From Natronomonas salinimetallica (GTDB taxonomy: Archaea; Halobacteriota; Halobacteria; Halobacteriales; Haloarculaceae), in NCBI RefSeq assembly GCF_013839515.1, contig NZ_JACDNQ010000010.1, positions 1-64,000 of the forward strand: 64,000 bases of DNA. The letters are read 5' to 3'. Below the pieces are notes generated by a model. The model made no database searches and had not been told where the DNA came from. It saw nothing but the letters and a program-made list of their open reading frames with translations. Position 1 is the first letter of the stretch. The number at the start of each line of letters is the position of its first letter. This document shows positions 44,847 to 64,000 of the stretch, in pieces. The position numbers and the translations under genes are program-made.

Positions 44847-47800
44847 TCACCGGTATTGGCTTATAAGTTCGCGGATGTCGTCAGAGTCTACATAGAAGCC
44901 TTGAAGCCTAGTAGTTCTGTCTGCTTCTTTAAGTAGCATGTCTCCGTCTCCACCAAGTTCCTCTGCTCCACCTTCGTCAATTAGGATTCGAGAGTCAGAC
45001 TGCTTTGGCAGCCGGAAAGCTACCCGAGTATCCAAATTAGCACGGAGGTCCGTGTCGATAGCTTCGTGGGAAGGTCGTTGGGTAGAGATGACGAGATGGA
45101 TACCCTGTGCCCGTGCGATTTGAGCGATGCGGCGCACGTTATCCTCGGTGTCATCAGCGTCTTCTCCAAGTTGCTGGAGTAGGTCGCTGTATTCATCGAT
45201 GATGACGACAATCGGCTTCATCTGGTCATCCGGATTCTGTTCGTTGTACTCCCCAATGTCACGGCAGACGCTTTCGCGCAGCAGCTGTTTTCTACGCGGG
45301 ATTTCATCCTCGACGAGCCACTCGAACAGGTTGGCAGCTTCTTCGGCGCCAGTGATCACTTCACCGTTAGAAAGGTTCGGCAGAGCATCGAAGAAGATGA
45401 AGTCGGTCTCCTTCGGATCAACCAAGGCGAACTCGACGTTGTCTTCGCCTTTCTGCTCCATGAAGTTCATAATCAGGGAGTACAGGAACACGGTCTTCCC
45501 GCTACCTGTTGCTCCGCCGACCAACATGTGCGGTGCTTCAGAGAGGTCAGAACGGTAGACATCGCCGTCTGGTGTAATGCCTGCTAGGAAGGGTAATGAA
45601 GATGTCTCGATTTCGCCGGGCGGTTTGTACCGGTCTTTGTAATCGCGTTGAGGTACCACGACGTTGTGTTCCCGAGGAACGTCAAGAGCTACGTACTCTG
45701 TTCCAGGCAGTCGCTGGACGATTGGTTCTTTCTCGAACGCCATTTCTCGGGCGATGTCCTCTGTACGTTGCTCTAGGGAACTCTGTTTCTCGCCTGGTGC
45801 CAAACGGATCTTGAAGCGGACTACGTTTGGTCCGACATCAATATCGTCGGGATCGATATTTCGGATGTTGATCTTGAACTCGTTGAGAACCCGTTTCAGG
45901 GTTTCTACCAGGTCAGTGTATTCTTCGGGATCGCCGAACCGGTCAGCAGATTCTTTGTTGACGTCTGTCTTTTCCGCGTCGCTGACGGTGTCTCTCCCGC
46001 CGGTTTCCTCCTCGTCCGCTTCCGGCTTGGTTTCGTCGACCTCGTCCGTTTCCTCTTCTGCGACAGCTTCTTCTTCAGCATCCTGTTCCAGCCTCTGGTT
46101 CTCTCGGTCTTCGATGCCGCTGACGATCAACCGCTTAATTGACTGGCGGGGAAGCTTGTCGACCCTAATGGACTGGGCGTTCGTAGTTACGCCGTTAATT
46201 CGTTCGTCCGACGTGGCTTCGCTGGTGACTTCGACCGATACGATCCTCGGGTTGATCTCGATTTGAGCATCCCCGTTGAATACGTTATTAATCCGGTCTG
46301 CCCACTCCTGCTTACCCTCCATCCCTTCGGCGGAGGTCAGTTCGTAGTACAGTTGTTCGCGGAGAGCCTCTTTCCGGGGCGACGTGGTGAGGTTTTTCTG
46401 GCCAGTGAACAGGCCACGGATTGTGTCTGTCGTCTCGAAGACTTGGTCGACGGCATTCCCTTCCACGACCTTGGTGCCATCTTCGTCTTTGACGGTGTAG
46501 GCACCGCTAGTTTCTTCCAGAGTCTTGATTTCGATGATGTCGAGGATAAGGCCACCATCGTCGTCGAACTGGACGGTAAGGATGTCGGCCCGGCTCTCGC
46601 TGTCTCCCAGATTCAGCCATTCCCGGGTGCGTGGGTTGTCGATGGAGAAGATCAGCTTGGGGTCGGCCAGCGTTTGTTGCAGCCACTGGACGGCGATAAT
46701 CGAGCCAAGCAAGCCTTTTGTGTTTCTGGATTTTCCGCTGCCGAGGGTTTCCCGGGTGATGAGGCGGAGAAGGCCGCTTTGCTGCAGGTCAGCGATTCTC
46801 TCTGCGATATCCTCCAAATCGGTGTCGTCAGGCGCGAGACGGTATTCGGTGATGATCCGGCGGAGGACCCGTCGGAAGTAATCGATATCCTCAGAGTACG
46901 TGGCGAAGTCGCGTTCGCCGCGTCTTTCTCTAGAAATTAGGTTGTCCTTCCAGAACGGGTTACCATTCATCGGCGGTGAGGAGATTGAGATCCAGATCAC
47001 GGAGTCGAGGAGTTCGTCGATAGTCTCTTTCTTGACGTTAAGTTCGTTGACCTCGGCGTTGTGGATGGCCTGCCGCTGGTTATACAGTTGGTTGATCAGG
47101 TCCTGGTACTCGGAGAAGAGGACTCCTTCCTTCGACGGTGAGATATTTATTTTGTCCTCGAGTAGGTCGTAGTCGAACTCTTTCGGGACGTATAGCGGGT
47201 GGATTGTGGTCTCGGCATCACGCTCGAAGGTCTGGATGCTGAAGTTGCTCTGGTCGTTAATCAGGATAAAATGCTGTGGGTCGCCTTTCAGGCCCTCAGC
47301 GTATGAGTCGTAGCTGGAGTGTTCGGTTGTAACGATCTCGAACTCCCCAGAGTCGTTGTCCGGGCCGAACAGGTTGATGATGTCCTCGGATACGCTAGGT
47401 GAGACAGTTCCGTTGAGGACAGGTTTCTCTTCGTCTTCGATAAAGGCAAACTCCACTGTCGCGCCTTGGATTTCTTCTTTCTCAGCCAGATGAGCGATAT
47501 CAGAGAGAAGGTTCACAGGATCTAGTGGGTCGATGACGCTGATCTTAAGGTGGCGTCTGGACGGAGGGTATGCTGACGTGAATTTGTCGAGTACGTAGTC
47601 GTAGAACTTGGAGTTCGTGCCTTCTGCAGCGTTCTCGATCCGGGTGTAGACTGGCAGCCTGTCGAGCTCCGCGGATTGTACGAGATAAGTCTCATCCGCC
47701 AGTCGGTAGTTCCCGCCCACGTGGATGCTACGGAGGACGTGTGGCTGTTCTTCGACGCTGTTGATGAGGAAGTTGCGTTCTTCCTCGGTCAGCGACTCTT

Positions 47801-49448
47801 TTTCGTCCTTCATCTCCCGCGCCAGTTCGGAGTACTTCCAGAGGTGGAGCGGGTGGAGTGGGGAGAGGACGAGTTCTCTGTCATCTTCGTATTCGAGGAT
47901 GACGGTGTCGAATAGGAGGAAGTCGGAGAGGAGTTTGGAGGAGCCTTCGGAGCTGACGTCCTGAATCTCTCGGTACTTCTTGTCCAGTTTGTCCTGGACT
48001 TCGCGGTATGCATCTATGTAGTCTTCTGCGGATTTTAGCAGGCCTTCGTCTCCGAGAAGGCGGATGAGCGGTGCGGATAGCAGTCCTGGTAGGGCGTAGA
48101 CAAGTTCGCTACGGGCTGTTACGTATCGGTCGATGGATTCGACTAAGTCCTCGAACTTGCCGCTGTTCTCAGCCACTCCACGGAGTTTTTCGAAGGTGCT
48201 ATCTTCGCCTCGTGGTTGGAACTTCTCAGTTCTCAGAGCTTGGAAGTTCTTGATCGCACTTTGCCTGTCCTCTGGGTTGTGAATGATACCGCCGAAGGAA
48301 TCCTCGGTAACGAAGTGATCGATGAAGTAGTAGAGGTCGTCGTTGACGTCGAAGGCCAACTGCTCATCCCCGGTGAACTCCATATCGACCCGGTTTTCTT
48401 CTTCCTCGACGGCTTCTCGGTACTGGTCATCGAACTCTTCTGAAAGCCGTTCCAGTTCTTCATCGTTGTCATCGAAGACTGCTTCCACGCTGGCAGATTC
48501 GACATCTCTCCGGGTGCTAGTGGTTGAACGTCGTTGGCTGGACTGGCCAGCGGTGGAGAATATTTCGTTGACCTCGTTGTACTTCAGGTCGGCGAGGATC
48601 TCCGAGTCGCCTGTTCGTTCGAACCGGCGAAGCTTGGCTACGGATTGTTCCCGTTCTTCCCTTTCGCTGTTGTCGACTTTGGTGACGCTGTTAGTGAGGC
48701 GACGTCGATCCCTATTCGACATGTGAGAGACCCGCAGTACAAGGTCCAGGTTGTCGGAAAGTCTGTCAGGGATTTTGTCGGGGTTGTTGAGCCCCGGATC
48801 GTTGAACAGCCGCAGTCTGTAGAGTTCGGTTCCAAGGGCGTCGAGTGAGGCTTGTTCTGATTCTTTGAGCGTCGAAGTTGCGTAGTCAGCTACTGCAGGG
48901 ATTTCGAATCTATCGTAGAGGTCGGATCCAAGGGTTTTCCAGATGGCTTGAGCTGGGGGACTGTCGGCGAACTGTTTCTTGGCCTTCATCTGGTCGGTGA
49001 TTTCTCGCGTGATTTCTGCCAGAGGCAGGTCGACCATGCCCTCGAAATCTTTCATCGAGTTCAGACGGGCGTGGTCTCCCCGGACCAGAATCACCAGTTT
49101 CTCTGGTTCGATTCGCCCGTCCCATTCGAATCCGGTGTCGGTGCCGTTCCGCCAGTTGACGGCGACACTGACTTTGTCCGTGAGTCTGACGGAGGAGTCC
49201 TCCGTCCGTGACTGAAGATCGTCAATGTCTGCTTCATCGATGCTGACCATTGCGAGGCCAACATCGTACCGTGCATTACTGCAGAGGATATCGACAAATT
49301 CCCCAGCGTCGAACCGGGGCGGCGATTCGATGATAATACCGATGTTTTCGTCGGTCAGTTGGTCGACTGTCTCGTTGGCGATTGCTTTGCCGATCAGATC
49401 CTCGTTGCTCTCGTATGAGCTGTCTTGTGTCTGTGTGGTTTCGCTCAT
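44847..49448 (-). CDS. DptH-like protein with C-terminal FtsK/HerA translocase
   Basis: 1533 residues. The last 270 form an FtsK/SpoIIIE/HerA ATPase: GGATGSGKTVF with K1318 as Walker A, VVIIDEYSDLL with D1418 as Walker B, and VISTQRPS as the following sensor region. The upstream 1250 residues contain the LSPLHPLHLWKYSEL block that I associate with DptH proteins, and a PD-(D/E)XK-like segment (LILDIIEIKT) near residue 970 that deserves attention. A Glu-rich linker spans about 1120-1170. DptH belongs to phosphorothioation-dependent restriction. It overlaps the upstream gene stop by four bases. The identity as DptH is by architecture and order. Confidence 0.7.
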   Translation of the reverse strand: MSETTQTQDSSYESNEDLIGKAIANETVDQLTDENIGIIIESPPRFDAGEFVDILCSNARYDVGLAMVSIDEADIDDLQSRTEDSSVRLTDKVSVAVNWRNGTDTGFEWDGRIEPEKLVILVRGDHARLNSMKDFEGMVDLPLAEITREITDQMKAKKQFADSPPAQAIWKTLGSDLYDRFEIPAVADYATSTLKESEQASLDALGTELYRLRLFNDPGLNNPDKIPDRLSDNLDLVLRVSHMSNRDRRRLTNSVTKVDNSEREEREQSVAKLRRFERTGDSEILADLKYNEVNEIFSTAGQSSQRRSTTSTRRDVESASVEAVFDDNDEELERLSEEFDDQYREAVEEEENRVDMEFTGDEQLAFDVNDDLYYFIDHFVTEDSFGGIIHNPEDRQSAIKNFQALRTEKFQPRGEDSTFEKLRGVAENSGKFEDLVESIDRYVTARSELVYALPGLLSAPLIRLLGDEGLLKSAEDYIDAYREVQDKLDKKYREIQDVSSEGSSKLLSDFLLFDTVILEYEDDRELVLSPLHPLHLWKYSELAREMKDEKESLTEEERNFLINSVEEQPHVLRSIHVGGNYRLADETYLVQSAELDRLPVYTRIENAAEGTNSKFYDYVLDKFTSAYPPSRRHLKISVIDPLDPVNLLSDIAHLAEKEEIQGATVEFAFIEDEEKPVLNGTVSPSVSEDIINLFGPDNDSGEFEIVTTEHSSYDSYAEGLKGDPQHFILINDQSNFSIQTFERDAETTIHPLYVPKEFDYDLLEDKINISPSKEGVLFSEYQDLINQLYNQRQAIHNAEVNELNVKKETIDELLDSVIWISISSPPMNGNPFWKDNLISRERRGERDFATYSEDIDYFRRVLRRIITEYRLAPDDTDLEDIAERIADLQQSGLLRLITRETLGSGKSRNTKGLLGSIIAVQWLQQTLADPKLIFSIDNPRTREWLNLGDSESRADILTVQFDDDGGLILDIIEIKTLEETSGAYTVKDEDGTKVVEGNAVDQVFETTDTIRGLFTGQKNLTTSPRKEALREQLYYELTSAEGMEGKQEWADRINNVFNGDAQIEINPRIVSVEVTSEATSDERINGVTTNAQSIRVDKLPRQSIKRLIVSGIEDRENQRLEQDAEEEAVAEEETDEVDETKPEADEEETGGRDTVSDAEKTDVNKESADRFGDPEEYTDLVETLKRVLNEFKINIRNIDPDDIDVGPNVVRFKIRLAPGEKQSSLEQRTEDIAREMAFEKEPIVQRLPGTEYVALDVPREHNVVVPQRDYKDRYKPPGEIETSSLPFLAGITPDGDVYRSDLSEAPHMLVGGATGSGKTVFLYSLIMNFMEQKGEDNVEFALVDPKETDFIFFDALPNLSNGEVITGAEEAANLFEWLVEDEIPRRKQLLRESVCRDIGEYNEQNPDDQMKPIVVIIDEYSDLLQQLGEDADDTEDNVRRIAQIARAQGIHLVISTQRPSHEAIDTDLRANLDTRVAFRLPKQSDSRILIDEGGAEELGGDGDMLLKEADRTTRLQGFYVDSDDIRELISQYR

Positions 49449-50947
49449 ATTTCCTCCTCGGGGACAGAGACGATGGTGACGCCGTCCGCGTATTCCTCAG
49501 CGTATCCAAGCCTGGATACTGCTTCTTTGAAACCCTCGTAGTTCTGGTTATTCAGCGGATCACTTTCGGATGCGCTGGCACCGAGGCGGATGTCCCACTC
49601 CGTCAGGTGGCTGCGGTCCTGTTCAGTTCCGCCTACGATGATTCCGTACCGTTCCCGGAGTTCTTCTGAGAGATCTTGGAGAGACATACTCGTGCCTGGT
49701 TCGATTACGGAGAGTAGGATGGGTTCCAGCATCTCGGGGTCAGGCCGATATCTGCGTTTGTTCGCCCGATTTCCTCGTGGTTTGAGGATTCCGGCACGCC
49801 AGGCGAATGTCTGGGCTGTGGACTGCGGTGTGTACGTGTCGAACCGGTTCGAGAAGTCGTGGATGACGTTGCTGACAGCGTCCACCAGCCTGTAGAAGGT
49901 GGTATCCTGTTCGGGATCCCGAGAAGCCCGGAACACCTGCTCGAATTTTTCGTAGTCCTGCTCGATCTTGTCCTCCTTATTCCGGTTCAGTTCCAGGAAA
50001 TTGTGGTTCTCGATCTCTCGGAGGACGTCTTCCTCGCTAAAGTCTTTGTAGCCCTGCAGGTCGAGGACGTGTTTTACGCCGAGCCGGGTGGCTAACTGAA
50101 TCTCTGACCCGACGACGCGGAATGATTCGAGGCTGGCGTTGGCTACCGGGTTGTCCCTATTCCCGGTATAGTTCAGAACGAGTGGGACGGGTTCGTTTTT
50201 GCCCCCGTCTTCTCGAATCTCATTGTGTCGGTTGGCCATGTAGACGTAGAGTAGAAACCCGCCAAATTTGATGGTGCGGCGAAGGTCACGGGCGTAGTTC
50301 AGGTCATAGTCGCCGTTGGAGTCTTTCAGATGCTTCGACAGGGTTTCGAAGCCTTCGACGAACTCTTCCGCAATCTTCTTGCCCCCGAATGCGTCTCCGA
50401 GGACCGGTTCTTCCCAAGGCGAGACCGTGACATTGCCTTTTTTCCCGTCTTTGGCGAGTGGTCGGAACAGGAGAGAGATAGCGTCGTGGTGATCCTGAAG
50501 TTGGTCGGTCAGCTTCAGGTTGATGTCGCTGTCGGATTCGTCCAGTACGGTGTAGATGAACTGAGAGGGTGTTACACCGATTCGGCGGTAGGCGACGAAC
50601 CAGTCGCTCATAGAGGTCATCGCAGAATGTCGTGGACTACTTGCGTACAGGGCGTTGTCGTTGTCCAGAACTTTCCTTATCCTGTATCGAAGATTGTCCA
50701 TTTGTTCGTCACTGAGATCACGAGAGGACTCGAACAGGCCGTGGTATTTCTCGTCCAAGTCGCTGGAAGGGGTTTTCCCAGGTTTCTCGACGAACTTGAA
50801 CAGGTCCTCCGACTGATGAGTAGATCCCAGGACGTTACTGAAGACGACCTGGGAGAGGTGCACCGGTTTTAGAGAGGCAGAGGTTGCTTTGAATCCGAAC
50901 GCGGCTTCCGATGCGTCGGAGTTGACGTCGTTAAGTCTCATTGGCAT
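49445..50947 (-). CDS. Unrecognised 500-residue protein in the DptG position
   Basis: 500 residues with no P-loop or nuclease motif seen. The N-terminal half is mixed alpha/beta with a DLRRTIKFGGFLLYVYMANR helix at about 228-248. The C-terminal 90 look like a winged helix (SLQDLSEELRERYGIIVGG; YEGFKEAVSRLGYAEEYADG). It lies between the small ATPase and the FtsK-like gene, exactly where dptG stands in dptFGH operons, and starts six bases after the ATPase stop. The function is unknown; DptG-like is inference from order and size. Confidence 0.55.
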   Translation of the reverse strand: MPMRLNDVNSDASEAAFGFKATSASLKPVHLSQVVFSNVLGSTHQSEDLFKFVEKPGKTPSSDLDEKYHGLFESSRDLSDEQMDNLRYRIRKVLDNDNALYASSPRHSAMTSMSDWFVAYRRIGVTPSQFIYTVLDESDSDINLKLTDQLQDHHDAISLLFRPLAKDGKKGNVTVSPWEEPVLGDAFGGKKIAEEFVEGFETLSKHLKDSNGDYDLNYARDLRRTIKFGGFLLYVYMANRHNEIREDGGKNEPVPLVLNYTGNRDNPVANASLESFRVVGSEIQLATRLGVKHVLDLQGYKDFSEEDVLREIENHNFLELNRNKEDKIEQDYEKFEQVFRASRDPEQDTTFYRLVDAVSNVIHDFSNRFDTYTPQSTAQTFAWRAGILKPRGNRANKRRYRPDPEMLEPILLSVIEPGTSMSLQDLSEELRERYGIIVGGTEQDRSHLTEWDIRLGASASESDPLNNQNYEGFKEAVSRLGYAEEYADGVTIVSVPEEEI

Positions 50948-50953: not shown

Positions 50954-52513
50954 TCACCTCCGCTCCATCTGGTATCGGTCATCGTTGACTGTCAGGATCT
51001 CGAGTTCGCCGGTTTCCGTGTCCATAATGTGGACGGTGCCGTAGTCCTCATCATGGCTTTCCCTATACTCGATTTCTTCCATAAATTCTAGCAACTGCTG
51101 TTCTTCCTCTCTGCCGCGTAGGATGTAGGGGATATTGCCTTCCAGGGCACCGAGTGTTTCTGATAGATCTGGATCAATCCGTAGTCTGACTGTTGAGTCA
51201 CGGCCTTCGTATTCGAGAACGTGGTGGTCGTGGTTGTAGTCCATTGCATCTCTGATTTCGGGATGGAGCTGCGGGACTCGGCGGTTCAACTCACGTTTGG
51301 GAATTTCTGTCCGGGAGATCAGGGATAGGGAGCTTTTAGATCGATAGTTATGGGAGAGCCAGACTCGGAGGTCGGAACCTTTGGAAGAATCTGGCATGAA
51401 ATAGCTGTTAATCATCTCTATGACATCCTCTTTCACGCTTTCGTCCGAACGATCCCTGTTCCGCTGGTTATGGAAAGAGTAGTTGGTCTCATGGTAGAGG
51501 TCGCGGGCGTCGTAGTCTTTGATGACTACGTCCTCAAAGTAGAACTGGCGTTTCTTTTCGATGAAGCGTTGGTCGACTTCTTCCTCTGAATCTTCTTCGT
51601 CTCTCCGTGAAATCTCTTCTTCAGCGTCTGCCCAGAGCTTGCTGTCAATGAATGGATGGGTGAGGTTGCGGGGATGGAAGTGTTCGTTCAGGAGGGTGAA
51701 GATCTTCCCGCTGCCACTGAACGCGAGGTTATAGTATTTCAGGTCTTCATCAAAGTTGGAGACGCTCTTTTCTTTGGCTCCAGTGATACAGTAGGCGAGG
51801 AAGTTTAGCAGGTCACGAACGGTTACGTGGGCATCCAACTGGCCAACTGACTGTAAGAGACGAATGGTATTTTCTCTGACACGATTGTTCCTCATCTTGT
51901 CTATGTTGTAGGCGATGTGGCCGTCAATGTCGTCACCGTTGTTCTCTTTCAGGAATTTGTTCGAAGTTAGGTTCTCGATGGCCTGACCGATGACCTTGCG
52001 AGTTAGGATATTCCTGTTGTTGAGGTCGATGACGACGATAGAGTCGAAGTCAGCATTCTCGGCTTGGTCTTCGTCGTAGATGATCTGGTTCTGGAACTGG
52101 CTTCGAACTTTTTTCAGGAATGGACAGTCGTCGGCGTGCCGGGTGGTCATCTCGTAAAGAGGGCCGTCGTTGATAGCGAGGATACCAGGCCGACCGTCAT
52201 CGAGGGCGTCTTTCCATTTGTCGAGTAGAATGGTGTAGTCGTCGTATTCTGAGGCGTCCGAGAGATAGAAATAATCGGGGTCCGGATACTCAGGTTTCAT
52301 CTGCAGGATGTACTGGGTTTTTCCGTCTCCAGGGTTCCCGGTGAGAACGACCTGTTTCCCGTCTTCCAGTGCGTCCTGTAGGTATTCCTCTCCGTCCAAG
52401 CGGGTTGTTATGTGTATCTCTCTACGTTGTTCGTCAGTGAGCTGTTCAGCGAAGCCTCCCTGTGCGAGTTGCGAAAGAAATCGCAGATCCAGCGTTGATG
52501 CTTCAATTCCCAT
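50954..52513 (-). CDS. DptF-like P-loop ATPase
   Basis: 519 residues. Walker A is TGNPGDGKTQY (residues 58-68, K65). A Walker B-like strand is IVVIDLNNRN near 165. The VRDLLNFLAYCITGAKEKS segment near 230 is a pattern I associate with DptF. It is a single-domain AAA+/STAND-like ATPase with a helical C-terminal half. In dptFGH systems DptF acts with DptG and DptH to attack DNA that lacks phosphorothioate marks. Order DptF-G-H is kept here. Confidence 0.65.
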   Translation of the reverse strand: MGIEASTLDLRFLSQLAQGGFAEQLTDEQRREIHITTRLDGEEYLQDALEDGKQVVLTGNPGDGKTQYILQMKPEYPDPDYFYLSDASEYDDYTILLDKWKDALDDGRPGILAINDGPLYEMTTRHADDCPFLKKVRSQFQNQIIYDEDQAENADFDSIVVIDLNNRNILTRKVIGQAIENLTSNKFLKENNGDDIDGHIAYNIDKMRNNRVRENTIRLLQSVGQLDAHVTVRDLLNFLAYCITGAKEKSVSNFDEDLKYYNLAFSGSGKIFTLLNEHFHPRNLTHPFIDSKLWADAEEEISRRDEEDSEEEVDQRFIEKKRQFYFEDVVIKDYDARDLYHETNYSFHNQRNRDRSDESVKEDVIEMINSYFMPDSSKGSDLRVWLSHNYRSKSSLSLISRTEIPKRELNRRVPQLHPEIRDAMDYNHDHHVLEYEGRDSTVRLRIDPDLSETLGALEGNIPYILRGREEEQQLLEFMEEIEYRESHDEDYGTVHIMDTETGELEILTVNDDRYQMERR

Positions 52514-52552: not shown

Positions 52553-54670
52553 TTAACTATTACTTATAATAAACTCACTGAGGCTGGCCTGTCGTTTGTC
52601 AAAATCAATCTCACTGCTCAGTTTGAATTCTTGCTTGTCAAATTCCCGGATATTCTCGAGCACACGCTGTTTCTGGACTCTCATACTTGCCCACCGGTCT
52701 ATCCAGTAATTGTAGATGGACTGCTGCTCTTTCTCAGGATCATCAAAATTCCAGTAGTAATCGGGCTCTCCATTGATGCCAAGGAGATACTCTTGAGTGT
52801 TTTCTGCGAGGTTAACTCCGTAGACGATTCGTCGGGATTCGTGCTTCAATAGATCCGTTTCCAGTCCGCAGTTCTTCAAACCGCGACGGATTTTACGGAT
52901 TCGTGGAGACACGCCTTCCCCAAATCGACCTCTGACTACTTTTCGACCTTCCTCAAATTGTGTGACTTGGCTTAACCGTTTCCGTGTTTCAGGGCCAAAC
53001 TGAATCGTACCATACCCCTCTGTATATCCGATCTGATCGTATTCGATCCGGCCGTTTCCAGTAGGGACTCTGATACGGTCGTACTGAGCACTACCGATTT
53101 CAAACAGCCCGGTAGTATCGAGGAACACCAACTCGTTTTGTTTGGTCACCGGCTCGCCTTTCATCGAGCTGGCGATTTCACTCTGATAGTCGCCATACTT
53201 ATGCTGGTACATATTGATGACCTGAGGACCGGTCAAGGCCATTGCCACAAGTTTTCCGCCGAGAATGCGGTTGTAGGGAGGGATAGCGCCGCAAACCATG
53301 ATGTTCATCATTCCGGCTCCGACTCTCTCCTTCTTGATTTCTTTCAGCGCGGTTTTGATAGCTCGTCGTCCTGAATCGTTATTTAGACCAGTGCGAATGA
53401 ACTCCTCATCGCCCTCCTCGCTATGTTCTTGGAAATACTTCCGGTCCCGAAGCAGTTTCTGAAGCGCTCTAGCACGCTTCTTCCTGAATAATGCAGTTTC
53501 GCTTCTCTCCATCCACGACTCCATCTTCTCTGGGTTCTCGTCTTCACCATTTTCGATGGTCTGCTCAGCCTCGGTCTCGATATCTTCGAGAATCTCAATT
53601 ACACGACCATTCGGGTTATTGAACCGCTCTTGCGACAATTCATCGTATTCGTCAACGAAGTCGTCGTAGCGGATGTCCTCAATAGCGTCCCTAATTGACT
53701 GTTCTAAGGCTTGCCGTATATCCGAACAGAATCGGCTGACTCTCTGCTGATACTCTTCTTCCGATTCAAGCCACTCTGTTTGAGTTACTGCTCGTGTTTT
53801 TTTATCCGGCGTCCGCTTCTCTGCCGGTAATTGCTCCTCATATTCATGGATCTGTTTCTTCCGCTGCAGTGTCTCTTCAATGGCCTCAATCCTCCATCCG
53901 ATGTAGTTGTCTCGGACGGACATATTCATCATCGGACTCGCAAGCGTCGCGATCCCCATTACGGGATCTTTTGGCTTTGCAGCATTTCTAATAAGGAAGT
54001 TGATATTTCTCCCAGGGACTGTATTATACGGAGTTAGCCAAGTATATCGGAAGTAGCGCCAGATATCCATCAAATCCAAACCGGTATGTTGGCATTTCTG
54101 GCCCTTCTCGACTTTTTGTATATATGGTTGGACGATGTCGTGTAGTTCCTCCACAATCTCCTCTTGGTTTTGATCTAGAAGCGGCGCTAAGTCTCCATAG
54201 AGTTGTTCTCCTTCAGTTATGAGTTCGAGGACACTTCTCCCACCATTAGTGTTGCGGCGGGTATCACGTTCCATTTTCCGGATAAACTCGCGGACACTTT
54301 CCTCTTTGAATTGCGCTCGACGTTCCTTCTGAAGAATTGTTCTCTCTTGTTCTTTGAATTCCTCCGGGTTGTCCTTGTAGCGATCCGGGTCTGGTCGGAC
54401 GACATGTAGATCAGAGTTTTTCCGGATGTCATAGTTGATTTCAATGAGATCCAAGAGGACTTCTAACGCAGCGAGATATCGAATCTGGCCCTCAGTTACT
54501 TCGTCTTCTATTTCACTCTCAATAGATCGAATCTCATCTTTGATGGCAACTTCTCTATCGAGTTCTTCCTGAAATTCGATTAGTTCATCGGTTAGAGCGT
54601 CAAATCGCCGTTGGAACTGATCTGGGAGATTAGGCGAAAAATCAACTTCTCGTTTAGAATTCGCACCCAT
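52553..54670 (-). CDS. DruA/DUF4338-domain protein, first gene of leftward defence cluster
   Basis: 705 residues from ATG 54670 (GANSKREVDF); an open frame extends to 54808, but the added part is not conserved-looking. A split DUF4338-like core is seen: GRNINFLIRNAAKPKDPVMG and NMSVRDNYIGWRIEA, then, after a long helical insert, ILGGKLVAMALTGPQVINMY, LVFLDTTGLFEIGSAQYDRI and YTEGYGTIQFG. This RDxxIGW ... GGKLVA ... SxQYxR order is that of Druantia DruA. The insert has coiled coil. DruA proteins are found in anti-phage systems; its biochemical role is unknown. Its stop is 39 bases before the DptF-like gene. Confidence 0.62.
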   Translation of the reverse strand: MGANSKREVDFSPNLPDQFQRRFDALTDELIEFQEELDREVAIKDEIRSIESEIEDEVTEGQIRYLAALEVLLDLIEINYDIRKNSDLHVVRPDPDRYKDNPEEFKEQERTILQKERRAQFKEESVREFIRKMERDTRRNTNGGRSVLELITEGEQLYGDLAPLLDQNQEEIVEELHDIVQPYIQKVEKGQKCQHTGLDLMDIWRYFRYTWLTPYNTVPGRNINFLIRNAAKPKDPVMGIATLASPMMNMSVRDNYIGWRIEAIEETLQRKKQIHEYEEQLPAEKRTPDKKTRAVTQTEWLESEEEYQQRVSRFCSDIRQALEQSIRDAIEDIRYDDFVDEYDELSQERFNNPNGRVIEILEDIETEAEQTIENGEDENPEKMESWMERSETALFRKKRARALQKLLRDRKYFQEHSEEGDEEFIRTGLNNDSGRRAIKTALKEIKKERVGAGMMNIMVCGAIPPYNRILGGKLVAMALTGPQVINMYQHKYGDYQSEIASSMKGEPVTKQNELVFLDTTGLFEIGSAQYDRIRVPTGNGRIEYDQIGYTEGYGTIQFGPETRKRLSQVTQFEEGRKVVRGRFGEGVSPRIRKIRRGLKNCGLETDLLKHESRRIVYGVNLAENTQEYLLGINGEPDYYWNFDDPEKEQQSIYNYWIDRWASMRVQKQRVLENIREFDKQEFKLSSEIDFDKRQASLSEFIISNS

Positions 54671-54835: not shown

Positions 54836-54894
54836 TTGATAACATATGCGTAAGGGGATTATCAGGACTAGAATCGGAGGCCTCCAAACCACCC

Positions 54895-56349
54895 GTGAGT
54901 AAACTTTCTATCCCCTTCGGGCTCAACCCAGAGGGAACAAAAACTCCAATCGAGGAGGCACAACGGAAGACAGACTACTATCGATGCCCAGAATGTGGTG
55001 AGTTTCTAACCCCTCGTATTGGCACTCAGCGCCAGTACTTTGCTCATAAGCAAGGTGTCCTGGAGGACATTTCCTGTTCACTCTCCAGCGACGAGGGTGT
55101 CGAAAAGATGATCGAGGATCTCCGTACTTCGGACATCGAAGAGGACGAGCGTGAGCGGTCGATTCGAACTTATCTCGGGCAACGCCATAATAGCGCAATC
55201 GAATTATTTGGTATCGTTCCATCACTCGATTGGGATCAAATCCAAGAAAATGAGGACGTAGACACGCTCTTAGAAAAGGTCGAAATCGAGGCATCAGGAA
55301 TTACCCATCCACCAGTACCGAGTAACTTCCACCCATCGGAAGCAGAGGTCACGCTTGATCTCGACCCGTCAGCGGACAGGTACAAACTCCAAATCAAAGG
55401 TCCAGATATCCTCGGAAGTATCACCGGCACTTGGACTACTTCAGGGCTCCATCACGGTGACCTCTTTATTGGTGACGAAACTCGGGCGCAACGATATAAT
55501 TCGGAGCGCCAAGTGCGCAAAGATACGTGGGTATATCTGGTTTCAAAGAATCCCCCAAAATCCGAAGTATCGTTCGTTGACGTCTACGACTTCGCGGATG
55601 TAGCCTTAGTCGGGTTCCGGGCTTCCGAAAAGACAGAGCCCTTCCTCGATCGTTATGGAGGAGGTCTTAGTACAGAAAACTACGGATTCGATGCTGACGT
55701 TGTATTACCTGCACACGCAAATCCAACTGTCGAGGCACCCCTATACGCGCCACCAGAGGAATCAGTTCTCGTAGGGGTTACTCCCTCCGAGGAAATCGAC
55801 CCAATATTCGAGGTTGTTTCCATCCCCAAAGATGCAAACGACACAGTCGAAATCGACCGGACTGGGCCTGGTAACCCCCGTTACTACAAAACCGAGGTAC
55901 CCCCAGGTGGATCGCGGCGTGTAAGTATTCATCAGCGGAACTCCGATCGTCATCGCCTGATCCACCTCCATCCGTCTGAAGAATCGTCGACCATCGACAC
56001 TCTAGAGCCGGGATCACGGCGAATCGGTATCGAAATCCAAGATGAGAACCATCGTGAATTACTCACACCGATCGGAGACCAGTCTTCGAAGCATATGCCC
56101 GTTGATTTTAATCCTCATTTATTACACACGACCCTCGGATATGTCGGGCCAGAAGATCTCGAATTGGAAGTGATCGCCACGTTTGCTGAAGGCGCATCTT
56201 TCGGGCCAACAATCAGCCGGGACGTAACAACAATCAGTGACATGATCTCGGAAATCGTCCATTGGGTAGAGTGCGGCTGTATTGAACTTGAAATCCGATT
56301 CAATGGTATTGGGACCGTTTCAATCCGATTTCCCCAGGAGGAACAATGA
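54895..56349 (+). CDS. Protein with N-terminal CoiA-like zinc motif, defence island
   Basis: 484 residues from GTG 54895 with GGAGG upstream. YRCPECGEFLTPR, then QYFAHKQG and SCSLSSDE form a CoiA-like zinc-finger half-domain (Cys pair, FAH, Cys). The rest is beta-rich with many Pro, resembling tandem Ig-like or jelly-roll domains; no nuclease motif is seen after it. It overlaps the next gene (ATGA). It may recognise DNA ends or phage parts; unassigned. Confidence 0.6.
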   Translation: MSKLSIPFGLNPEGTKTPIEEAQRKTDYYRCPECGEFLTPRIGTQRQYFAHKQGVLEDISCSLSSDEGVEKMIEDLRTSDIEEDERERSIRTYLGQRHNSAIELFGIVPSLDWDQIQENEDVDTLLEKVEIEASGITHPPVPSNFHPSEAEVTLDLDPSADRYKLQIKGPDILGSITGTWTTSGLHHGDLFIGDETRAQRYNSERQVRKDTWVYLVSKNPPKSEVSFVDVYDFADVALVGFRASEKTEPFLDRYGGGLSTENYGFDADVVLPAHANPTVEAPLYAPPEESVLVGVTPSEEIDPIFEVVSIPKDANDTVEIDRTGPGNPRYYKTEVPPGGSRRVSIHQRNSDRHRLIHLHPSEESSTIDTLEPGSRRIGIEIQDENHRELLTPIGDQSSKHMPVDFNPHLLHTTLGYVGPEDLELEVIATFAEGASFGPTISRDVTTISDMISEIVHWVECGCIELEIRFNGIGTVSIRFPQEEQ

Positions 56350-58172
56350 ATCTGAAACCCGGTGACGAGTTTACAGCGGAAGTAGACAAGATTACGAAAC
56401 GTGGAACCTGCACCGTCAAATACGATGGACAAGGAATTAATATCGGACCGGTCACGTGCGAACCCGGTCGTTCGGTTCGATTGCGGTACCTCGGGGCAGA
56501 TTCAGTAGCTGGAACATCGATACGTTTCGCGCTTTGCCTGACCGATGAGGTCCTCGCGGAGAATTACAAAGACCACATTCGACGCCATGTAAGTGGTCTT
56601 CTTCCTGACCAACCACCACAAGAGGGAGAACAAACCTACATAGAGGTAGAGAAGATCGATGAGTACGGCCTCGGACTCTCGGTTGCTGGAGATGAAGTCG
56701 TCGAACTCGGACCAGTACAAGCTGACGAAGGCGACTTAGTGCATGTTGTCGGACGAGAACCGGGATATGCAGAGGTACTGAACGCAAGAGCACGTGGGAA
56801 ACGTTACAGGATACGCTTTGATATCCTCCGAGAGCGCTGGGACAAACTCCCTGTCAAAAAGAATGAATCATTCATGGCAACGATAGATGATACTGATGGG
56901 AGGAATCTCATCGCGTATGTCGACGGGTTGCCAGTATATTTCTCAGGGGGCAAAGCCCGAATCGGACAAAAAATCGAAGGGGAAATCATCAGATTCCACC
57001 GGGGGCGCGGGATTGGGAACGTGACAAGAGTCTATGATTCGGTAGGTGACATCGAAGACCCAAATCATGGCACCCGGATGCAACAGCTTCAGCAGGCTGG
57101 GTTCAGCCAAGAACCGTTTTGTGAATTCGCCACGCGGTTTACTGGTGCGAGTGACGAACAACTACCATCGACTGAAATCGGTATCCGAAACGCCATAATC
57201 GGTGAGGCAATCCGGCTCGGTCTTGCTGAGAAAGCTGAGTCGGGGGGCCAGCAGTATCCACAGGCACACATCACCGCAATCCGACATTGGGTTGTGCATA
57301 AGCTTGCGGCCATTCTGGGACAGCCAGCTGCTGACGGTGACACGACACCCGATGACGTCGGGTGGTTCCGAGCAGCATTAACAGAGCGTACCGGTCCCAC
57401 AATCACGTTCCTCGGAGATGTGCTACAGCTCTCACAAGGGTACTATGCTCCAGCCCCGACGCGGGCTGTAATGATCTCCGAATCCGAAGCCGTACTCGTT
57501 TCAGGGGATCCAAGTCATCCATTCCATGAGTCCGGCTTGGATATCGAATTCCGAGGATTGACACGGATCCTTACTGACATCAGTGAATCAAAATTGCGTT
57601 CAAGAAAAATTCCCGTTCAATCCAAAAATGAATACATCGGTCTGGGCGAGGCGCCTATCACGACGCCCACCACACTACGTGAGTACATCGAACATCGACC
57701 AAAGGTGTCGTGGGAACCGGAGGAAGATTGGGCACCATACACTGGACAGTACTATGGCTTCAGCTTAGACGGTGAGCCGCTCGTTATTGAAGAGGCCGAT
57801 GGAACTGCGCTCAGCTTGTGGCGAGTTCCAGTCGAATACGGAGCTGACACCTACCAATTAAAAATTCGATCGGGTGACGTCGAAACAAAGGCCGTCACAG
57901 TCTCACCGAAATACCGCAAGCATGCGTGCCTAATCCTCGACTCAATGGCCGAGGACCCACAGACAGTTGAACTCACCGCATATGACGACGAGGTCTTATT
58001 GAGTTGTGACTTTGCGCCGCCGCGAGCACAGATGCGCTGGCTGTATGCAGTCGGAGCAGAGTGGCTTGAGACATCGTCGTATCAACTTCAATGGCGAATT
58101 TCGGACACCGATGCCGATTCGGTACGGGAAGTCTTCGACGAACTGCCCGTGACCATCATCGACAACACATAA
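56346..58172 (+). CDS. Protein with three TRAM/OB-like repeats, defence island
   Basis: 608 residues with GGAGGA before the ATG. Three similar beta-barrel units: LKPGDEFTAEVDKITKRGTC at 4-60, QTYIEVEKIDEYGLGLSVAG at 95-145 and KKNESFMATIDDTDGRNLIA at 174-235. The G-x-x-x-x-x-V-x-x-I/D pattern is that of TRAM/S1-like OB folds, which bind RNA or DNA. The C-terminal 350 residues are unrecognised. It ends one base before the helicase ATG. Likely a nucleic-acid-binding partner of the helicase. Confidence 0.6.
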   Translation: MNLKPGDEFTAEVDKITKRGTCTVKYDGQGINIGPVTCEPGRSVRLRYLGADSVAGTSIRFALCLTDEVLAENYKDHIRRHVSGLLPDQPPQEGEQTYIEVEKIDEYGLGLSVAGDEVVELGPVQADEGDLVHVVGREPGYAEVLNARARGKRYRIRFDILRERWDKLPVKKNESFMATIDDTDGRNLIAYVDGLPVYFSGGKARIGQKIEGEIIRFHRGRGIGNVTRVYDSVGDIEDPNHGTRMQQLQQAGFSQEPFCEFATRFTGASDEQLPSTEIGIRNAIIGEAIRLGLAEKAESGGQQYPQAHITAIRHWVVHKLAAILGQPAADGDTTPDDVGWFRAALTERTGPTITFLGDVLQLSQGYYAPAPTRAVMISESEAVLVSGDPSHPFHESGLDIEFRGLTRILTDISESKLRSRKIPVQSKNEYIGLGEAPITTPTTLREYIEHRPKVSWEPEEDWAPYTGQYYGFSLDGEPLVIEEADGTALSLWRVPVEYGADTYQLKIRSGDVETKAVTVSPKYRKHACLILDSMAEDPQTVELTAYDDEVLLSCDFAPPRAQMRWLYAVGAEWLETSSYQLQWRISDTDADSVREVFDELPVTIIDNT

Positions 58173-58173
58173 C

Positions 58174-61100
58174 ATGAAATCAATAAAAGAAGTCTCGGAA
58201 GAGCTCGAGAACGACCTTCAACAGTATATCGAATCACGTTACCACCTTCACCATCCGCGGCTTCTCAAGGAACGTCGTGCCTTGATGGACGAGGGAGAGA
58301 CAGCCACCGAACCATGGGTCGAGGCAACACCGACTTATGTCTCGGGTGAACCCCTCAGAGAATTGGGCCTGCCGAGCGAAGTTGTCGATTTGCTAAAAGG
58401 TCTCGAAAGCGACGATCTCGATATCTTCGATCCGCCGTACAAACATCAGGCCGACGCCCTCCAATCGTTCTTCAACGACGAGGACGATCTCATCGTATCC
58501 ACCGGAACAGGGTCCGGGAAAACCGAAATTTTCCTCTACTCAATTCTGGGTCAGCTCGCCCAAGAGGCAGCGCGAGGAGAGACAGCTGACCAACGTGGGA
58601 TGCGGACATTAGTTCTCTATCCGATGAACGCCCTCGTCGCGGATCAACTCTCCCGGATGCGTCTACTCTTTGGTGACGAGGACGGTGCAGATACACTTGA
58701 GGACTACATGGGCCGGCGTGTACAGTTCGGGATGTACACGAGTCGTACACCCTATCACGGGGAGTACGACAAGAGTAAGAACGATAATCTGGTCAAGCCG
58801 GTCATCAACCGGTATCTCAAGTTAGAGGAAGAACAGCCGGACCTCTACGAACAACTCAAACAAAAAGGCCGTATTCCAGCCAAGGATCTCGAAGGGTTCC
58901 GGAACAAGAATAAGAAAAAGGAGACTCACTTCCGTACCCAACCTGGCGACACCGAACTTTTCACGCGTCAGGAAATGCACACCCGCGATGGAAGCAATCC
59001 CCATGGCGGGACGCCGGATCTCCTGATCACGAACTACTCGATGCTGGAGTATATGCTACTCCGGCCGATCGAACAGCCCCTTTTCGAGGATACCCGTGAG
59101 TGGCTTGCCGAAGACGAAGAGAACGAATTGAATATCGTTCTCGACGAAGCTCACCTCTACCGGGGCGCACAAGGGGCAGAGGTTGCGCTCCTCTTGAGCC
59201 GCTTGCTCCAGAAACTCGGGATATCTCGCGATCGTGTGCGCTTCATTCTCACGAGTGCGACGATGGGCGAAAACGTAGAGGAAGCAGCCCCAGACTTTGC
59301 GGCCCAGCTCACAACCGGAGATCCGGACGATTTCTCAGTGGTTACGGGAGAGCAGGTGGAGTACGAAGGTGGAGAGCCAAGCAAAAAACGTACGGCGCAA
59401 CTCCTAGAACGGGTTCGCTACCAACTAGAGGACCCATCGAAGATTCGCAACGTTGCGAGCGAAAGAGGCTGGGACCCTCTCGAAAGTGATGACGTTGAAT
59501 CGGTCCGTTCGTACCTCGCCGACCAATTAGTCGAAGATCCACTCTTCAAATTGGCGCACGAATACCTTCGTGAAGAGCCACTGCGCCTATCAGCGCTTGC
59601 CGAAGAGTTGTTCGAGGACATCGATCAGGATTTGGCTCGTGAGGCGACAGGCAACCTCCTGTACCTTTGTACAGAAGCACGTCAGGGAGAGGAACAGGCG
59701 TTGCTCCCGACGCGTCTCCATATGTTCCTCAAAGGGCTCCCCGCCCAGTACGCGTGTGTCAATCCCGAGTGTAGCGGCCGTCGCGTTACTGAGGGAGAGA
59801 ACCTCCTCGGACGCATCTACAGTAATCCGCACACGACCTGTGAGGCCTGTGGCAGTCGGGTCTTCGAACTGATTAGCCACCGCACCTGTGGGGCAGCATA
59901 TCTTCGAGCGTATCGACGGTCTGACGACGACCGCGGGCCGACGTTCCTATGGTCAGATCCCGAGAGCAGCGAGGACTTGGACGAACTCCACCTGTTAGTT
60001 GAGGACCCTCGTGATGACCCGAACCCGGACCACGAACACGGCCGTTCGCTCGCCGAGACGACGGCCTCACGAAATCTCTCGATTACCTCCGGGCACCTTG
60101 TTGACGATCGCCACGTTGACGGCGAAGGGTCAACCACTCATATCGAGGTTCAGGTCCCGACTGAAGAGCCTCCGGATGAGGACGGGGCGTGGAGTTGGAC
60201 TCAATGCCCGGCGTGCGGTATCAAAGAGCGGCGCCGTCCGAATGGTGACACGAAGATTGAAGATCTGGTCACCAAAGGAGAGGAACCATTTGCGCACAGC
60301 GTCCGGTCGATGTTCGGTATCCAGCCGACCGATCCACTCAAAGATGAGTTCCCCAACGAGGGGCGGAAGGTATTGTGCTTCTCTGACGGGCGACAGAAGG
60401 CGGCCCGCTTAGCTCGAGATCTCCAATCGAACGTTGAATCTGACTCGTTCCGCGAGGTCTTAACCGACATTATCGGATCCGCGGACGGTGAAATCACGAT
60501 GGATCGGTTATTCGCCGAGTTCGCAGTCTACTGTGCGAAAAACAACATCGTATTCTTCGACGACAGCGACCAGTACACGAATCAGTCGGGTGTCGTGTAC
60601 AAGGGGTCACGCTCCCACTTCGAGGATATTCGTGGGAACCTATCCGACATCGTCAATGAGTACTACCTCGAGTCCATCGAGGATATACCTGAGGTACCAG
60701 CCGCACGCAATGCGTTGTCGGAGCGTCCCCGCCAGTATGAGGAACTTCTCCTCCGATCGTTGGGCGATGAACAGTACTCCATCACCGGCGCCCTCGTCGG
60801 GTACATTACGCCGTCCGAGGAGGTGTTTGAGAAAATTGATGAAGCTGTCCCTGAAATTGAGACAGACCAACTCAAGAGCATCCTCATCGAGGCGCTTCGT
60901 CATGCCTGCGAGGAACGAGCATTTGATTCAAGTATTGAAGCCAGACGACGTTCGAACTCCTACTCCTACCAAAATTGGATTGACCCGGACGAGACGGGGC
61001 TCCCCCACAGCGAAATAATCCCTGAATATATTGTAGAATCACTCGACGACGAAGTGCCGGAAGGGGCGTGGAATAGTCTGAGACGGGCGTTGATGACGAC

Positions 61101-63597
61101 AGAGCCTGTATTGTTTGGGGCCTCTCACGGCAATTACTTCGCCAATCCGAAAGCAACGACAATCGATCTCCGACTCGACGACGATTGGTACCGGTGCGAA
61201 GGGTGTCGCCGGTTCTCGGTCGTGTCACTCAATGATTCGTGCCCATACGATGGTTGCCGGGGGACCCTCAGTGCGGTAAGCGATGATGATATCCATCTCC
61301 AAGCACGCAAGAACTTCCTCCGGAACCCCCCACGCGAAGTGCTCCATGGTGAACGGGACCCGCTCACGCTCCGTTCAGAAGAGCACTCGGCACAACTGAG
61401 TGCAAAGGACAACTCCGAGGCGTTTGCACGTTCCGAAGAGTACGAATTGCTCTTTCAGGACATCCTCGTCGGGGACTCAGAGGCCGATCAGCCGATCGAC
61501 GTTTTAAGCTGTACGACCACGATGGAAGTCGGCATTGATATCGGTAGCCTCACTGGTGTCGCCATGCGGACGGTCCCGCCAGGACCAGAGAATTATGAGC
61601 AACGTGCTGGCCGGGCAGGGCGTCGCGGAGCCGGGCTTTCAACGATAGTTACCTTCGCGGATAACTCCCCTCACGAGTCACACTACTTCGAGAATCCTGA
61701 AGAGATGATCACGAGCGAGGGGAATGCACCGGTCATCTACGCCGGCAACGAAAAGATTGCCCGACGGCACATCAACGCCTCGCTGCTTGCTCGGTTCTTC
61801 GATCCATCGGCCGTCGAGACGGAAGCTGCCGTATTCCGCTCGCTCAAAGGTACAGCCGAGTTCTTTGAAGGAGAAGGCGACCAAACGCTCGCCGCGTTCG
61901 AAGACTGGCTGGACGAAGAGATCTTCGCCGATTCATCGTCGACGCTCGAGCAATTGAGTGCCCTCCTTCCGGATGCACTAGGAAAGGGACGTTCATCTGA
62001 CTGGGAGGTCGCATTAGTCCGCGACACCGCTACAGAGTTCTTAAACGAACTCCAGGAGCTACAAGCCAAAACAGAATGGGAAGATCAATCCACGGAGGAC
62101 GACGACCTACTTTCCGTCCTTTTGGACGCAGCCCTACTTCCGACGTTCTCGTTCCCAACTGATGTGGCCGATTTCGTCGTACGCGAAAATGAACCCGGGT
62201 CGTCACAGCCGAAGAACAAGTACCAGATGTCTCGGGATCTGAAGCAGGCACTCTCAACGTACGTTCCAGGCCGGGAAATCGTCGTTGACAAGAAAACCTA
62301 CGAGTCCTACGGCGTATATGTCAAATTTCCAGATAATCCGAAGAACCGAGTGGCTGGCGAAGACTGGAGAGACCTTGATTGGTTGAACTGGTGTGACGTC
62401 TGTAAGACGGTCTTTGACGAGCATGATGAGAGTCTCGCAGCCAAGGATATGGAGTGTCCTGTCTGTGAGGGAGCGACGGTCAGTTCACTACAGATGTACA
62501 CTCCAGAGGCGTTTGCACCGAAAGTCGATGAGACAGGTGCAGCTGAGAAAGGATCGGACTACAACGAGAACCGGGCCTACGCAACACAGCCTAAATACCC
62601 GCTTACGTCGACTTCTCACGAGAGTGAGAACGCTAGCGAGATGGCAGAGGAGAAATCCATTGGCCATTCGGTAGTAGGGAAGATGAATGACGAACAGCTT
62701 CTTGTCGCTAACTTTGGGGCTGACGAGGATGGGTTCGAGATCTGCACCGATTGTGGGGCCGTTAGCCGCGATGGCCCACTCTCAAATCCACACGCACGTC
62801 CCTATCCCAAGGACCTCCGATTCGTTGGTGAATATGACTGGGATGACCAGTGTACCGGTTCGACAGTCACGACGAGTTTCAGCCATCGCTTCCCTAGTGA
62901 TTTGACTGTCCTCCAAATCCCGTTGAGTGATGAGATGGAGTTCGTCCCATCGGAAGCATGGTTCGAGACACCGGGCCAGTCACTTGCGGAAGCATTAGTC
63001 ATGGGTGCATCCCGTGCGCTGGGAATCGAAGATGATGAACTCGAGGGAGGGTTCCGTACTCGATCGGCAGAACATGCCGATATCAACGCTCAAGGCGTTA
63101 TTGAGGTCTTCCTCTTCGATACAACCGCCGGTGGTGCCGGGTTCTCATCTCGCGTTTGGGAAGAATTCGACGCTGTGTGTGCAGAAGCCCGCACGATTCT
63201 CGAGAGTTGTTCATGCGATACGGCGTGCCACAACTGCCTGCGCCGCTATCAGAACCGGCATCTCCACGGCTCGTTGAATCGCCACGAAGGCCTCGCCTTG
63301 CTCGATTATTCACAGACAGGGATGCCCCCGACGCTTCGTCCCGCAAAGGCACAGAGCCTGATCCAGCAACTCGAACGTGCCCTGGAGTTGAAGGAAGAGG
63401 ACGTCGTACTCAGGGCGATTGACGACGATAAATGGAAAATCGAAATCGATGGGACGACGATGACGTTCGGTGTCCGCTCTAGTCTGCGGCGTTCACGTGC
63501 GCCTGAGTCGCCAACGTACGACGAAGACTACTCAGACTACGAATTGTCCCAACGGTTGCCAGAGGTGGCTCACTCGATCGTCGATAAACTCCAATAG
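58174..63597 (+). CDS. DEAH helicase with C-terminal DUF1998, DruE/DISARM-like
   Basis: 1807 residues. Helicase motif I is GTGSGKT (111-117), motif II is DEAH (324-327), motif III SAT follows near 359, and motif VI is QRAGRAGRR (about 1143-1151). Between lobes lie several Cys-rich zinc knots (near 527-565 and 1010-1030) and more in the C-half. The end (about 1645-1720) is DUF1998: FDTTAGGAGF and CSCDTACHNCLRRYQNR. A single large helicase with both parts is the hallmark of Druantia DruE; DISARM splits these into DrmA and DrmB. It probably translocates on invading DNA. Complete frame. Confidence 0.85.
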   Translation: MKSIKEVSEELENDLQQYIESRYHLHHPRLLKERRALMDEGETATEPWVEATPTYVSGEPLRELGLPSEVVDLLKGLESDDLDIFDPPYKHQADALQSFFNDEDDLIVSTGTGSGKTEIFLYSILGQLAQEAARGETADQRGMRTLVLYPMNALVADQLSRMRLLFGDEDGADTLEDYMGRRVQFGMYTSRTPYHGEYDKSKNDNLVKPVINRYLKLEEEQPDLYEQLKQKGRIPAKDLEGFRNKNKKKETHFRTQPGDTELFTRQEMHTRDGSNPHGGTPDLLITNYSMLEYMLLRPIEQPLFEDTREWLAEDEENELNIVLDEAHLYRGAQGAEVALLLSRLLQKLGISRDRVRFILTSATMGENVEEAAPDFAAQLTTGDPDDFSVVTGEQVEYEGGEPSKKRTAQLLERVRYQLEDPSKIRNVASERGWDPLESDDVESVRSYLADQLVEDPLFKLAHEYLREEPLRLSALAEELFEDIDQDLAREATGNLLYLCTEARQGEEQALLPTRLHMFLKGLPAQYACVNPECSGRRVTEGENLLGRIYSNPHTTCEACGSRVFELISHRTCGAAYLRAYRRSDDDRGPTFLWSDPESSEDLDELHLLVEDPRDDPNPDHEHGRSLAETTASRNLSITSGHLVDDRHVDGEGSTTHIEVQVPTEEPPDEDGAWSWTQCPACGIKERRRPNGDTKIEDLVTKGEEPFAHSVRSMFGIQPTDPLKDEFPNEGRKVLCFSDGRQKAARLARDLQSNVESDSFREVLTDIIGSADGEITMDRLFAEFAVYCAKNNIVFFDDSDQYTNQSGVVYKGSRSHFEDIRGNLSDIVNEYYLESIEDIPEVPAARNALSERPRQYEELLLRSLGDEQYSITGALVGYITPSEEVFEKIDEAVPEIETDQLKSILIEALRHACEERAFDSSIEARRRSNSYSYQNWIDPDETGLPHSEIIPEYIVESLDDEVPEGAWNSLRRALMTTEPVLFGASHGNYFANPKATTIDLRLDDDWYRCEGCRRFSVVSLNDSCPYDGCRGTLSAVSDDDIHLQARKNFLRNPPREVLHGERDPLTLRSEEHSAQLSAKDNSEAFARSEEYELLFQDILVGDSEADQPIDVLSCTTTMEVGIDIGSLTGVAMRTVPPGPENYEQRAGRAGRRGAGLSTIVTFADNSPHESHYFENPEEMITSEGNAPVIYAGNEKIARRHINASLLARFFDPSAVETEAAVFRSLKGTAEFFEGEGDQTLAAFEDWLDEEIFADSSSTLEQLSALLPDALGKGRSSDWEVALVRDTATEFLNELQELQAKTEWEDQSTEDDDLLSVLLDAALLPTFSFPTDVADFVVRENEPGSSQPKNKYQMSRDLKQALSTYVPGREIVVDKKTYESYGVYVKFPDNPKNRVAGEDWRDLDWLNWCDVCKTVFDEHDESLAAKDMECPVCEGATVSSLQMYTPEAFAPKVDETGAAEKGSDYNENRAYATQPKYPLTSTSHESENASEMAEEKSIGHSVVGKMNDEQLLVANFGADEDGFEICTDCGAVSRDGPLSNPHARPYPKDLRFVGEYDWDDQCTGSTVTTSFSHRFPSDLTVLQIPLSDEMEFVPSEAWFETPGQSLAEALVMGASRALGIEDDELEGGFRTRSAEHADINAQGVIEVFLFDTTAGGAGFSSRVWEEFDAVCAEARTILESCSCDTACHNCLRRYQNRHLHGSLNRHEGLALLDYSQTGMPPTLRPAKAQSLIQQLERALELKEEDVVLRAIDDDKWKIEIDGTTMTFGVRSSLRRSRAPESPTYDEDYSDYELSQRLPEVAHSIVDKLQ

Positions 63598-63601
63598 CGG
63601 A

Positions 63602-64000
63602 ATGGATGGGTCAGAGCAGTTTTCACACGTAAACTGGTCGGCGTCGGCAGCGCAGCTGTTCCAAGAGTGCCCACGGCGGTTCTTTTATCGATACCAACAG
63701 ACCGAGTCTACCGGGGACTATAGTGAGTATACACCGTCGCCCGGAGCCTATCTGGGAACAGTCGTACACGAATCTCTCGCGGGGCAGGTTGCACGGTGGG
63801 CTCGGGGTAAGAACATCCATCTCCAGACTGCAACCGATTACGCGAAAGACGAACTTGAGAGGTATGTGGAAGTGAATGCTGAGACGATTGCAGATTGGAT
63901 TGACCATACGGATGAGGAAACCTTCGATAGCGATTCGTTCACGCGGTCATTAGTTCGTACAGCCCGTAATCACATCAGACAGTTCTTCCGGGTGATTTGG
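63602..64000 (+). CDS. RecB/Cas4-like PD-(D/E)XK nuclease, truncated by the window
   Basis: 133 codons are visible from ATG 63602, five bases after the helicase stop. SASAAQLFQECPRRFFYRY is the opening motif of PDDEXK_1 (RecB/AddB/Cas4-like) nucleases, with the first Cys of the possible iron-sulphur cluster. AYLGTVVHESL is the next helix with the conserved His. The active Asp, Glu and Lys lie beyond the right edge. It is probably the DNA-cutting subunit of the rightward cluster. Confidence 0.75.
   Translation, partial: MDGSEQFSHVNWSASAAQLFQECPRRFFYRYQQTESTGDYSEYTPSPGAYLGTVVHESLAGQVARWARGKNIHLQTATDYAKDELERYVEVNAETIADWIDHTDEETFDSDSFTRSLVRTARNHIRQFFRVIW

Follow-up and report, generated by a model that had tools for sequence, protein, structure and literature searches.

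We analyzed a 64,000-nucleotide stretch of DNA from the haloarchaeon Natronomonas salinimetallica (hereafter the window). An earlier interpretation made from the letters alone (the sequence-only reading) had described four leftward and at least four rightward genes diverging from a short control region. All eight open reading frames (ORFs) are present where that reading placed them, and they are real and conserved (Table 1). The control region is also there, and its length was corrected by moving the start of DruA from TTG 54808 to the conserved M47 (54670). The TTG start is an overlong call because stop codons interrupt that upstream stretch in five relatives. Aligning the loci of seven haloarchaeal genomes revealed invariant blocks and partial conservation across the control region. 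The locus sits on a 97.7-kb contig, and several of its relatives are named plasmids, so a plasmid origin is likely.

Table 1. Features of the N. salinimetallica locus, by window position unless marked as contig
Feature	Position	Strand	Description
H	44847..49448	-	Nuclease and FtsK-type translocase, SspH-like
G	49445..50947	-	DndG/SspG-like DNA-binding subunit
F	50954..52513	-	SspF/DndF-like P-loop protein
Long DruA	52556..54670	-	705 aa from conserved M47; DUF4338/DruA in C-terminal half, predicted GNAT-like fold
Divergent control region, common to both arms	54671..54894		224 bp; aligned across 7 loci
R1	54895..56349	+	CoiA_N zinc-domain protein, DruB-like at N-terminus only
R2	56346..58172	+	OB-like repeats N-terminal, then DruD
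DruE1	58174..63597	+	YprA-family helicase
R4	63602..64465 (past window end, 64000)	+	PD-(D/E)XK (Cas4/DruK-like) nuclease, 287 aa
Mom-like gene	contig 64538-65038 (L002:2538-3038)	-	166 aa; about 540 bp beyond window end

Other ORFs in the window were also noted. A 113-aa ORF after H (44484-44825) matches, over its first ~65 residues, a 368-aa zinc-ribbon gene that occupies the same place in genomes G172 and G389 and is present as a cut copy in G332; the ORF is possibly a decayed gene. An ORF at 43343-44215 shares 46% identity with a Halobaculum plasmid protein annotated as ParA family. At 14399-20952, a leftward gene run includes two large ORFs that match mad8 (HerA/FtsK-type) weakly.

Gene content of the two arms

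The left arm is composed of a long DruA and a DndFGH/SspFGH-class set. The DruA-like call of the sequence-only reading held, with matches to PADLOC DruA1 (1.7e-147) and Pfam DruA (6.4e-36). Its leftward P-loop gene (F) matches PADLOC SspF (1.6e-14) and retains a Walker A motif (NPGDGKT), N115, and DLN163-165 in 38 relatives, features that fit the published description of DndF (Walker A, Asn/ND; PMC10853773). The FtsK-ending giant (H) likewise proved to be what its name implied, matching SspH (1.3e-67), FtsK_SpoIIIE (6.7e-33), and FtsK_alpha (2.8e-12). The residues of its PD-(D/E)xK motif (D955, E973, and K975) are kept in 45-46 of 46 relatives, as are Walker A and B. The third leftward gene (G) had been left unrecognised. 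That gene is real, and it codes for a DndG/SspG relative: it matches PADLOC SspG (4.1e-11), and its AF2 model (pLDDT 82.5) matches DndG in 7exx with a Z of 16.3 (378 residues aligned; rmsd 7.4), against Z 4.4 for the second-best structure.

The fold of DruA is predicted to be GNAT-like. Neither DruA nor F matched the sequences of solved structures. The DruA AF2 model is confident (pLDDT 88.8, pTM 0.85), but Foldseek gave no match for it at E<=0.001. We therefore base the GNAT assignment on structural neighbors in VIA and on a published statement. Most VIA neighbors of the model are GNAT acyltransferases, the toxins AtaT and KacT among them, with Z values of about 5-8, a range that can reflect a common arrangement. 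Independently, Rakesh, Aravind and Krishnan (2024, PMC10853773) assigned DUF4338 to the GNAT domains and reported its fusion to DndF.

We rejected the left arm as a Pbe or Dnd phosphorothioation system. The sequence-only reading had offered PbeABCD as a comparison, and none of the four left-arm proteins matched a PADLOC Pbe model. DndC (TIGR03183), a requirement of phosphorothioation systems, was found in none of the 10 carrier genomes, using a model that may miss a divergent SspD. Judged from this gene content, the usual phosphorothioate mark is unlikely in the carriers.

The right arm represents a variant of Druantia type I made up of a CoiA_N protein, an OB-DruD protein, a full-length DruE1, and a PD-(D/E)XK nuclease, and it lacks DruC. 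The predicted DruE-like helicase was upheld: it contains DEAD, Helicase_C, and MZB (MrfA/YprA-type zinc) domains and aligns with PADLOC DruE1 over residues 2-1806 of 1807 (1566 bits). Its relatives by sequence among solved structures are 9tu7 and 9wae. R1 is CoiA-like as described, with a CoiA_N match (2.3e-5) slightly under the Pfam cut-off, and Pseudomonas putida DruB carries CoiA_N too. The likeness of R1 to DruB is confined to this end (~50 residues); its homolog in genome G250 matches DruB1 (1.3e-5) over residues 9-58 only. R2 had been described as a triple-OB protein. Of its three N-terminal repeats, two align better than shuffled sequences do (p 0.002) and the third no better; the C-terminal half is DruD (DruD1 8.5e-7; hhalign to bacterial DruD 98.5%, E 1.5e-15). 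The RecB-like nuclease (R4) belongs to the PD-(D/E)XK family (PDDEXK_1 8.6e-23; DruK 2e-6), with its start corrected to ATG 63602 and its end placed past the window. PADLOC matched no window protein to DruC, and hhalign rejected both R1 and R2 as DruC (under 1%).

Certain Bacillota (L117, L123, and L150) contain a DruC-like gene, DruD, and DruE followed by a long DruA, with no DruB seen. This arrangement is another Druantia type I variant.

Linkage of the arms and the association of DruA with FGH

We examined how often the two arms occur together in a sample of 391 Halobacteria genomes. Full-length DruE1 is present in nine, and the left arm is adjacent in all nine. A tenth composite locus, carrying both arms, is found on a plasmid of Natribaculum longum. 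The arms are divergent in eight of the 10 composites and tail-to-tail in two (G266 and Natribaculum). Left arms without a right arm occur as four copies in three genomes (one each in G169 and Halosimplex L089, and two in Halobaculum litoreum, both damaged), and DruE was not found in these three genomes by searches that recovered the positive controls G000 and G266. The proposal that Druantia components occur together with a dptFGH-like set is borne out, and the two co-occur well beyond chance. Trees for the left and right arms conflict (AU p 7.5e-6 and 1e-4), though the conflict rests partly on weak branches within a close clade. Together with the rearranged arms, these trees suggest that the pairing persisted or re-formed and that linkage outlived rearrangement. 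Seven of the 10 composites are closely related to one another, with identities of about 90% or higher, and several have flanking genes in common, so the set represents only about four independent lineages.

The left arm has a separate existence in bacteria. We scanned 84,980 species genomes and recovered 79 long-DruA loci. In ~36 bacterial loci, including one on a Hymenobacter plasmid, G or H lies beside DruA with no DruE within <=10 kb on each side, a count that leaves out separate-strand cases such as L154. The sequence-only reading had proposed that arms usually found apart would be independent systems, and the answer splits by domain of life: every DruE1 in the sampled Halobacteria has the left arm beside it, the haloarchaeal left arm also occurs alone, and the DruA-FGH arm stands alone in the bacterial loci.

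Two further gene associations were seen among the long-DruA loci. An SfsA-family nuclease gene follows H in many of the ~36 loci and is a frequent fifth gene of DruA-FGH operons (for example L104:11620-12309, about 229 aa). A GHKL (MzaB-like) ATPase gene precedes DruA in about 30 of the long-DruA cases (L119:8240-11851 and similar), and DruE is close by in roughly a dozen of these. One proteobacterial metagenome-assembled genome (L132:156-15874) brings together DndH-type FGH, GHKL ATPase-DruA, a DruK-like nuclease, and DruE, and so parallels in a bacterium the composite seen in haloarchaea.

DruA is also fused directly to F, which is joined to its C-terminus in 18 ORFs (17 from the species-genome scan and one from the Hymenobacter plasmid) that include two near-identical pairs. 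The F profile drifts into DruA and inflates fusion labels; the figure of 18 comes from a separate fusion count.

We lean towards the interpretation that the locus is one composite restriction-type system directed against viruses or other elements, probably plasmid-borne, in which DruA is common to two DNA-destroying engines. This interpretation is supported by the left arm beside every full-length DruE1 of the sampled Halobacteria, the pairing kept or regained despite rearranged arms and conflicting trees, the DruA-F fusions, the DndG fold of G, the conserved nuclease and motor motifs of H, and the failure to find DndC in the 10 carrier genomes. Several points count against it. DruA-FGH stands alone elsewhere and so can do without the right arm, unrelated systems accumulate in defence islands, the composites reduce to few lineages, R1 resembles DruB over only ~50 residues, and the locus has no DruC.

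An alternative with a substantial minority chance of being correct is that DruA-FGH and a Druantia variant of DruB-like, DruD, DruE, and nuclease proteins are two complete, independent systems, placed side by side on a mobile island of defence genes and linked by nothing more than shared inheritance. Such independence would account for the solitary DruA-FGH copies in bacteria and haloarchaea, for the conflict between the arm trees, and for flanking plasmid genes that travel with the block. It fits poorly with the sampled Halobacteria, which never show DruE1 without the left arm, with linkage kept in two rearranged loci, and with a right arm that has no DruA of its own, whereas type I Druantia has one.

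A further reading, that DruA acts as a toxin or backup effector of GNAT type joined to DndF, is doubtful. PMC10853773 lists the DUF4338 GNAT among DndF fusions and proposes a backup-effector role, and the DruA model resembles GNATs that include toxins. Yet every one of these operons has DruA, which turns up again with DruE and with GHKL ATPases, and this suits a core targeting or regulatory subunit better than a variable accessory.

A Mom-like gene beside the locus

The gene that follows R4 belongs to the family of phage Mu Mom and the halovirus Mom-like protein. It matches the PHROG Mom-like profile (7.5e-12) and NCBIfam XF1762 (52.6 bits; cut-off 50) and is 37.7% identical to gene 44 of halovirus HHTV-1. 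Its Pfam Mom match falls below the cut-off, and that of a longer relative lies above it. Longer Mom-like proteins (308-523 aa; L200:8164-9564 and similar) occur in haloarchaea away from the composite system.

Nine of the 10 composites contain the Mom-like gene, counting G266, where a 58-residue C-terminal match lies at the contig end. Searches at E 0.01 found none in composite G250 or, genome-wide, in left-only G169, and none was found in the stretches around the left-only copies of Halosimplex L089 and Halobaculum litoreum.

Whether this gene takes part in the composite system is evenly balanced against the possibility that it is an anti-restriction gene of plasmid or viral origin, a chance neighbor with no role there. 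Mom-like/XF1762 genes appear on 18 plasmid records and in one tailed virus, mostly away from the composite system, and among the composites G250 has none and G266 shows just the C-terminal match, all of which would be expected of a passenger. A passenger explains less readily why the gene is found in 8 of 9 sampled genomes with the composite and in 17 of the 373 without it (Fisher p 9e-10, a test that ignores shared ancestry), or why the copies at composite loci form a supported clade (97/99). Natribaculum also argues for a role: its copy has a different position, upstream of R1, and is 74.7% identical, against about 35% for R1 and R2. Searches in the neighborhoods of other Mom-like genes found no restriction genes.

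SspFGH is reported to damage DNA that lacks its mark and to be toxic without the marking enzymes (PMC8092258). The Mom-like gene could code for a candidate self-marking enzyme, and it opens a way to ask how a DndFGH-like complex that has no phosphorothioation leaves the DNA of its own cell intact. In a stronger version, base modification by the Mom-like protein, and perhaps also by the GNAT-like DruA, would mark self DNA, and the DndFGH-type and Druantia-type engines would destroy unmarked DNA. We consider this version improbable; if true, it would describe a hypermodification-based restriction system built from Druantia.

A proposed composite system and its relation to known systems

In the composite system that we favor, the left engine would couple DruA physically to nucleotide-binding F, DNA-reading G, and the nuclease-translocase H, and would attach to invading DNA, move along it, and cleave it. 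The right engine would use the Druantia type I-like helicase DruE, OB-DruD, and the CoiA_N protein to open DNA. Because the Vsr nuclease of type I DruE is predicted to be inactive (PMC12458937), R4, a separate PD-(D/E)XK protein, would cut the DNA once it has been opened. In Druantia III, DruE has been assigned the role of a helicase-nuclease acting on DNA that contains ssDNA (PMC13192584). Since no phosphorothioation enzyme was found, the system would protect its host either by gated activation or by base marking through the adjoining Mom-like enzyme.

The fusion of a DUF4338 GNAT domain to DndF is already known (PMC10853773). The link of DruA-F and DruA-FGH to Druantia and the haloarchaeal composite appear to be new. 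In the literature covered, outside which most subscription papers lie, DruA is assigned no partner or role, and we found no full text naming both 'Druantia' and 'DptFGH'. Its fusion to DndF-like proteins and its place at the head of DndFGH-class operons across bacteria provide a direct lead to DruA function and join two defence families so far treated separately.

We compared the locus with the systems it most resembles. The left arm shares with the DndFGH/SspFGH module the P-loop signature of F, the DndG fold of G, and the PD-(D/E)xK nuclease and FtsK motor of H. It differs in having DruA as its first gene or as an N-terminal fusion, and in the absence of a detectable DndC from ten genomes. 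The bacterial DruA-F fusions correspond to the DndF with fused DUF4338 GNAT of PMC10853773, but the main text of that paper does not mention Druantia, and the literature covered contains no description of a haloarchaeal composite that includes DruE. The Mom-like protein, here a candidate modification enzyme, differs from phage Mu Mom and its halovirus counterpart in adjoining a cellular defence locus. BRIGADE (PMC12458937) is likewise a haloarchaeal YprA-helicase system with a proposed pairing to base hypermodification. It usually has two YprA helicases and Dpd-like genes, whereas this locus has a single YprA-family helicase among its eight genes, with DruE1 as its best match, and a Mom-like candidate. 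Druantia type I (DruABCDE) shares full-length DruE1, DruA, and DruD, and its DruB resembles the CoiA_N protein at the N-terminal end only. In the locus described here, the long DruA lies on the opposite strand in a separate divergent operon, DruD carries an OB extension, DruC is absent, and a PD-(D/E)XK nuclease and an FGH set are added.
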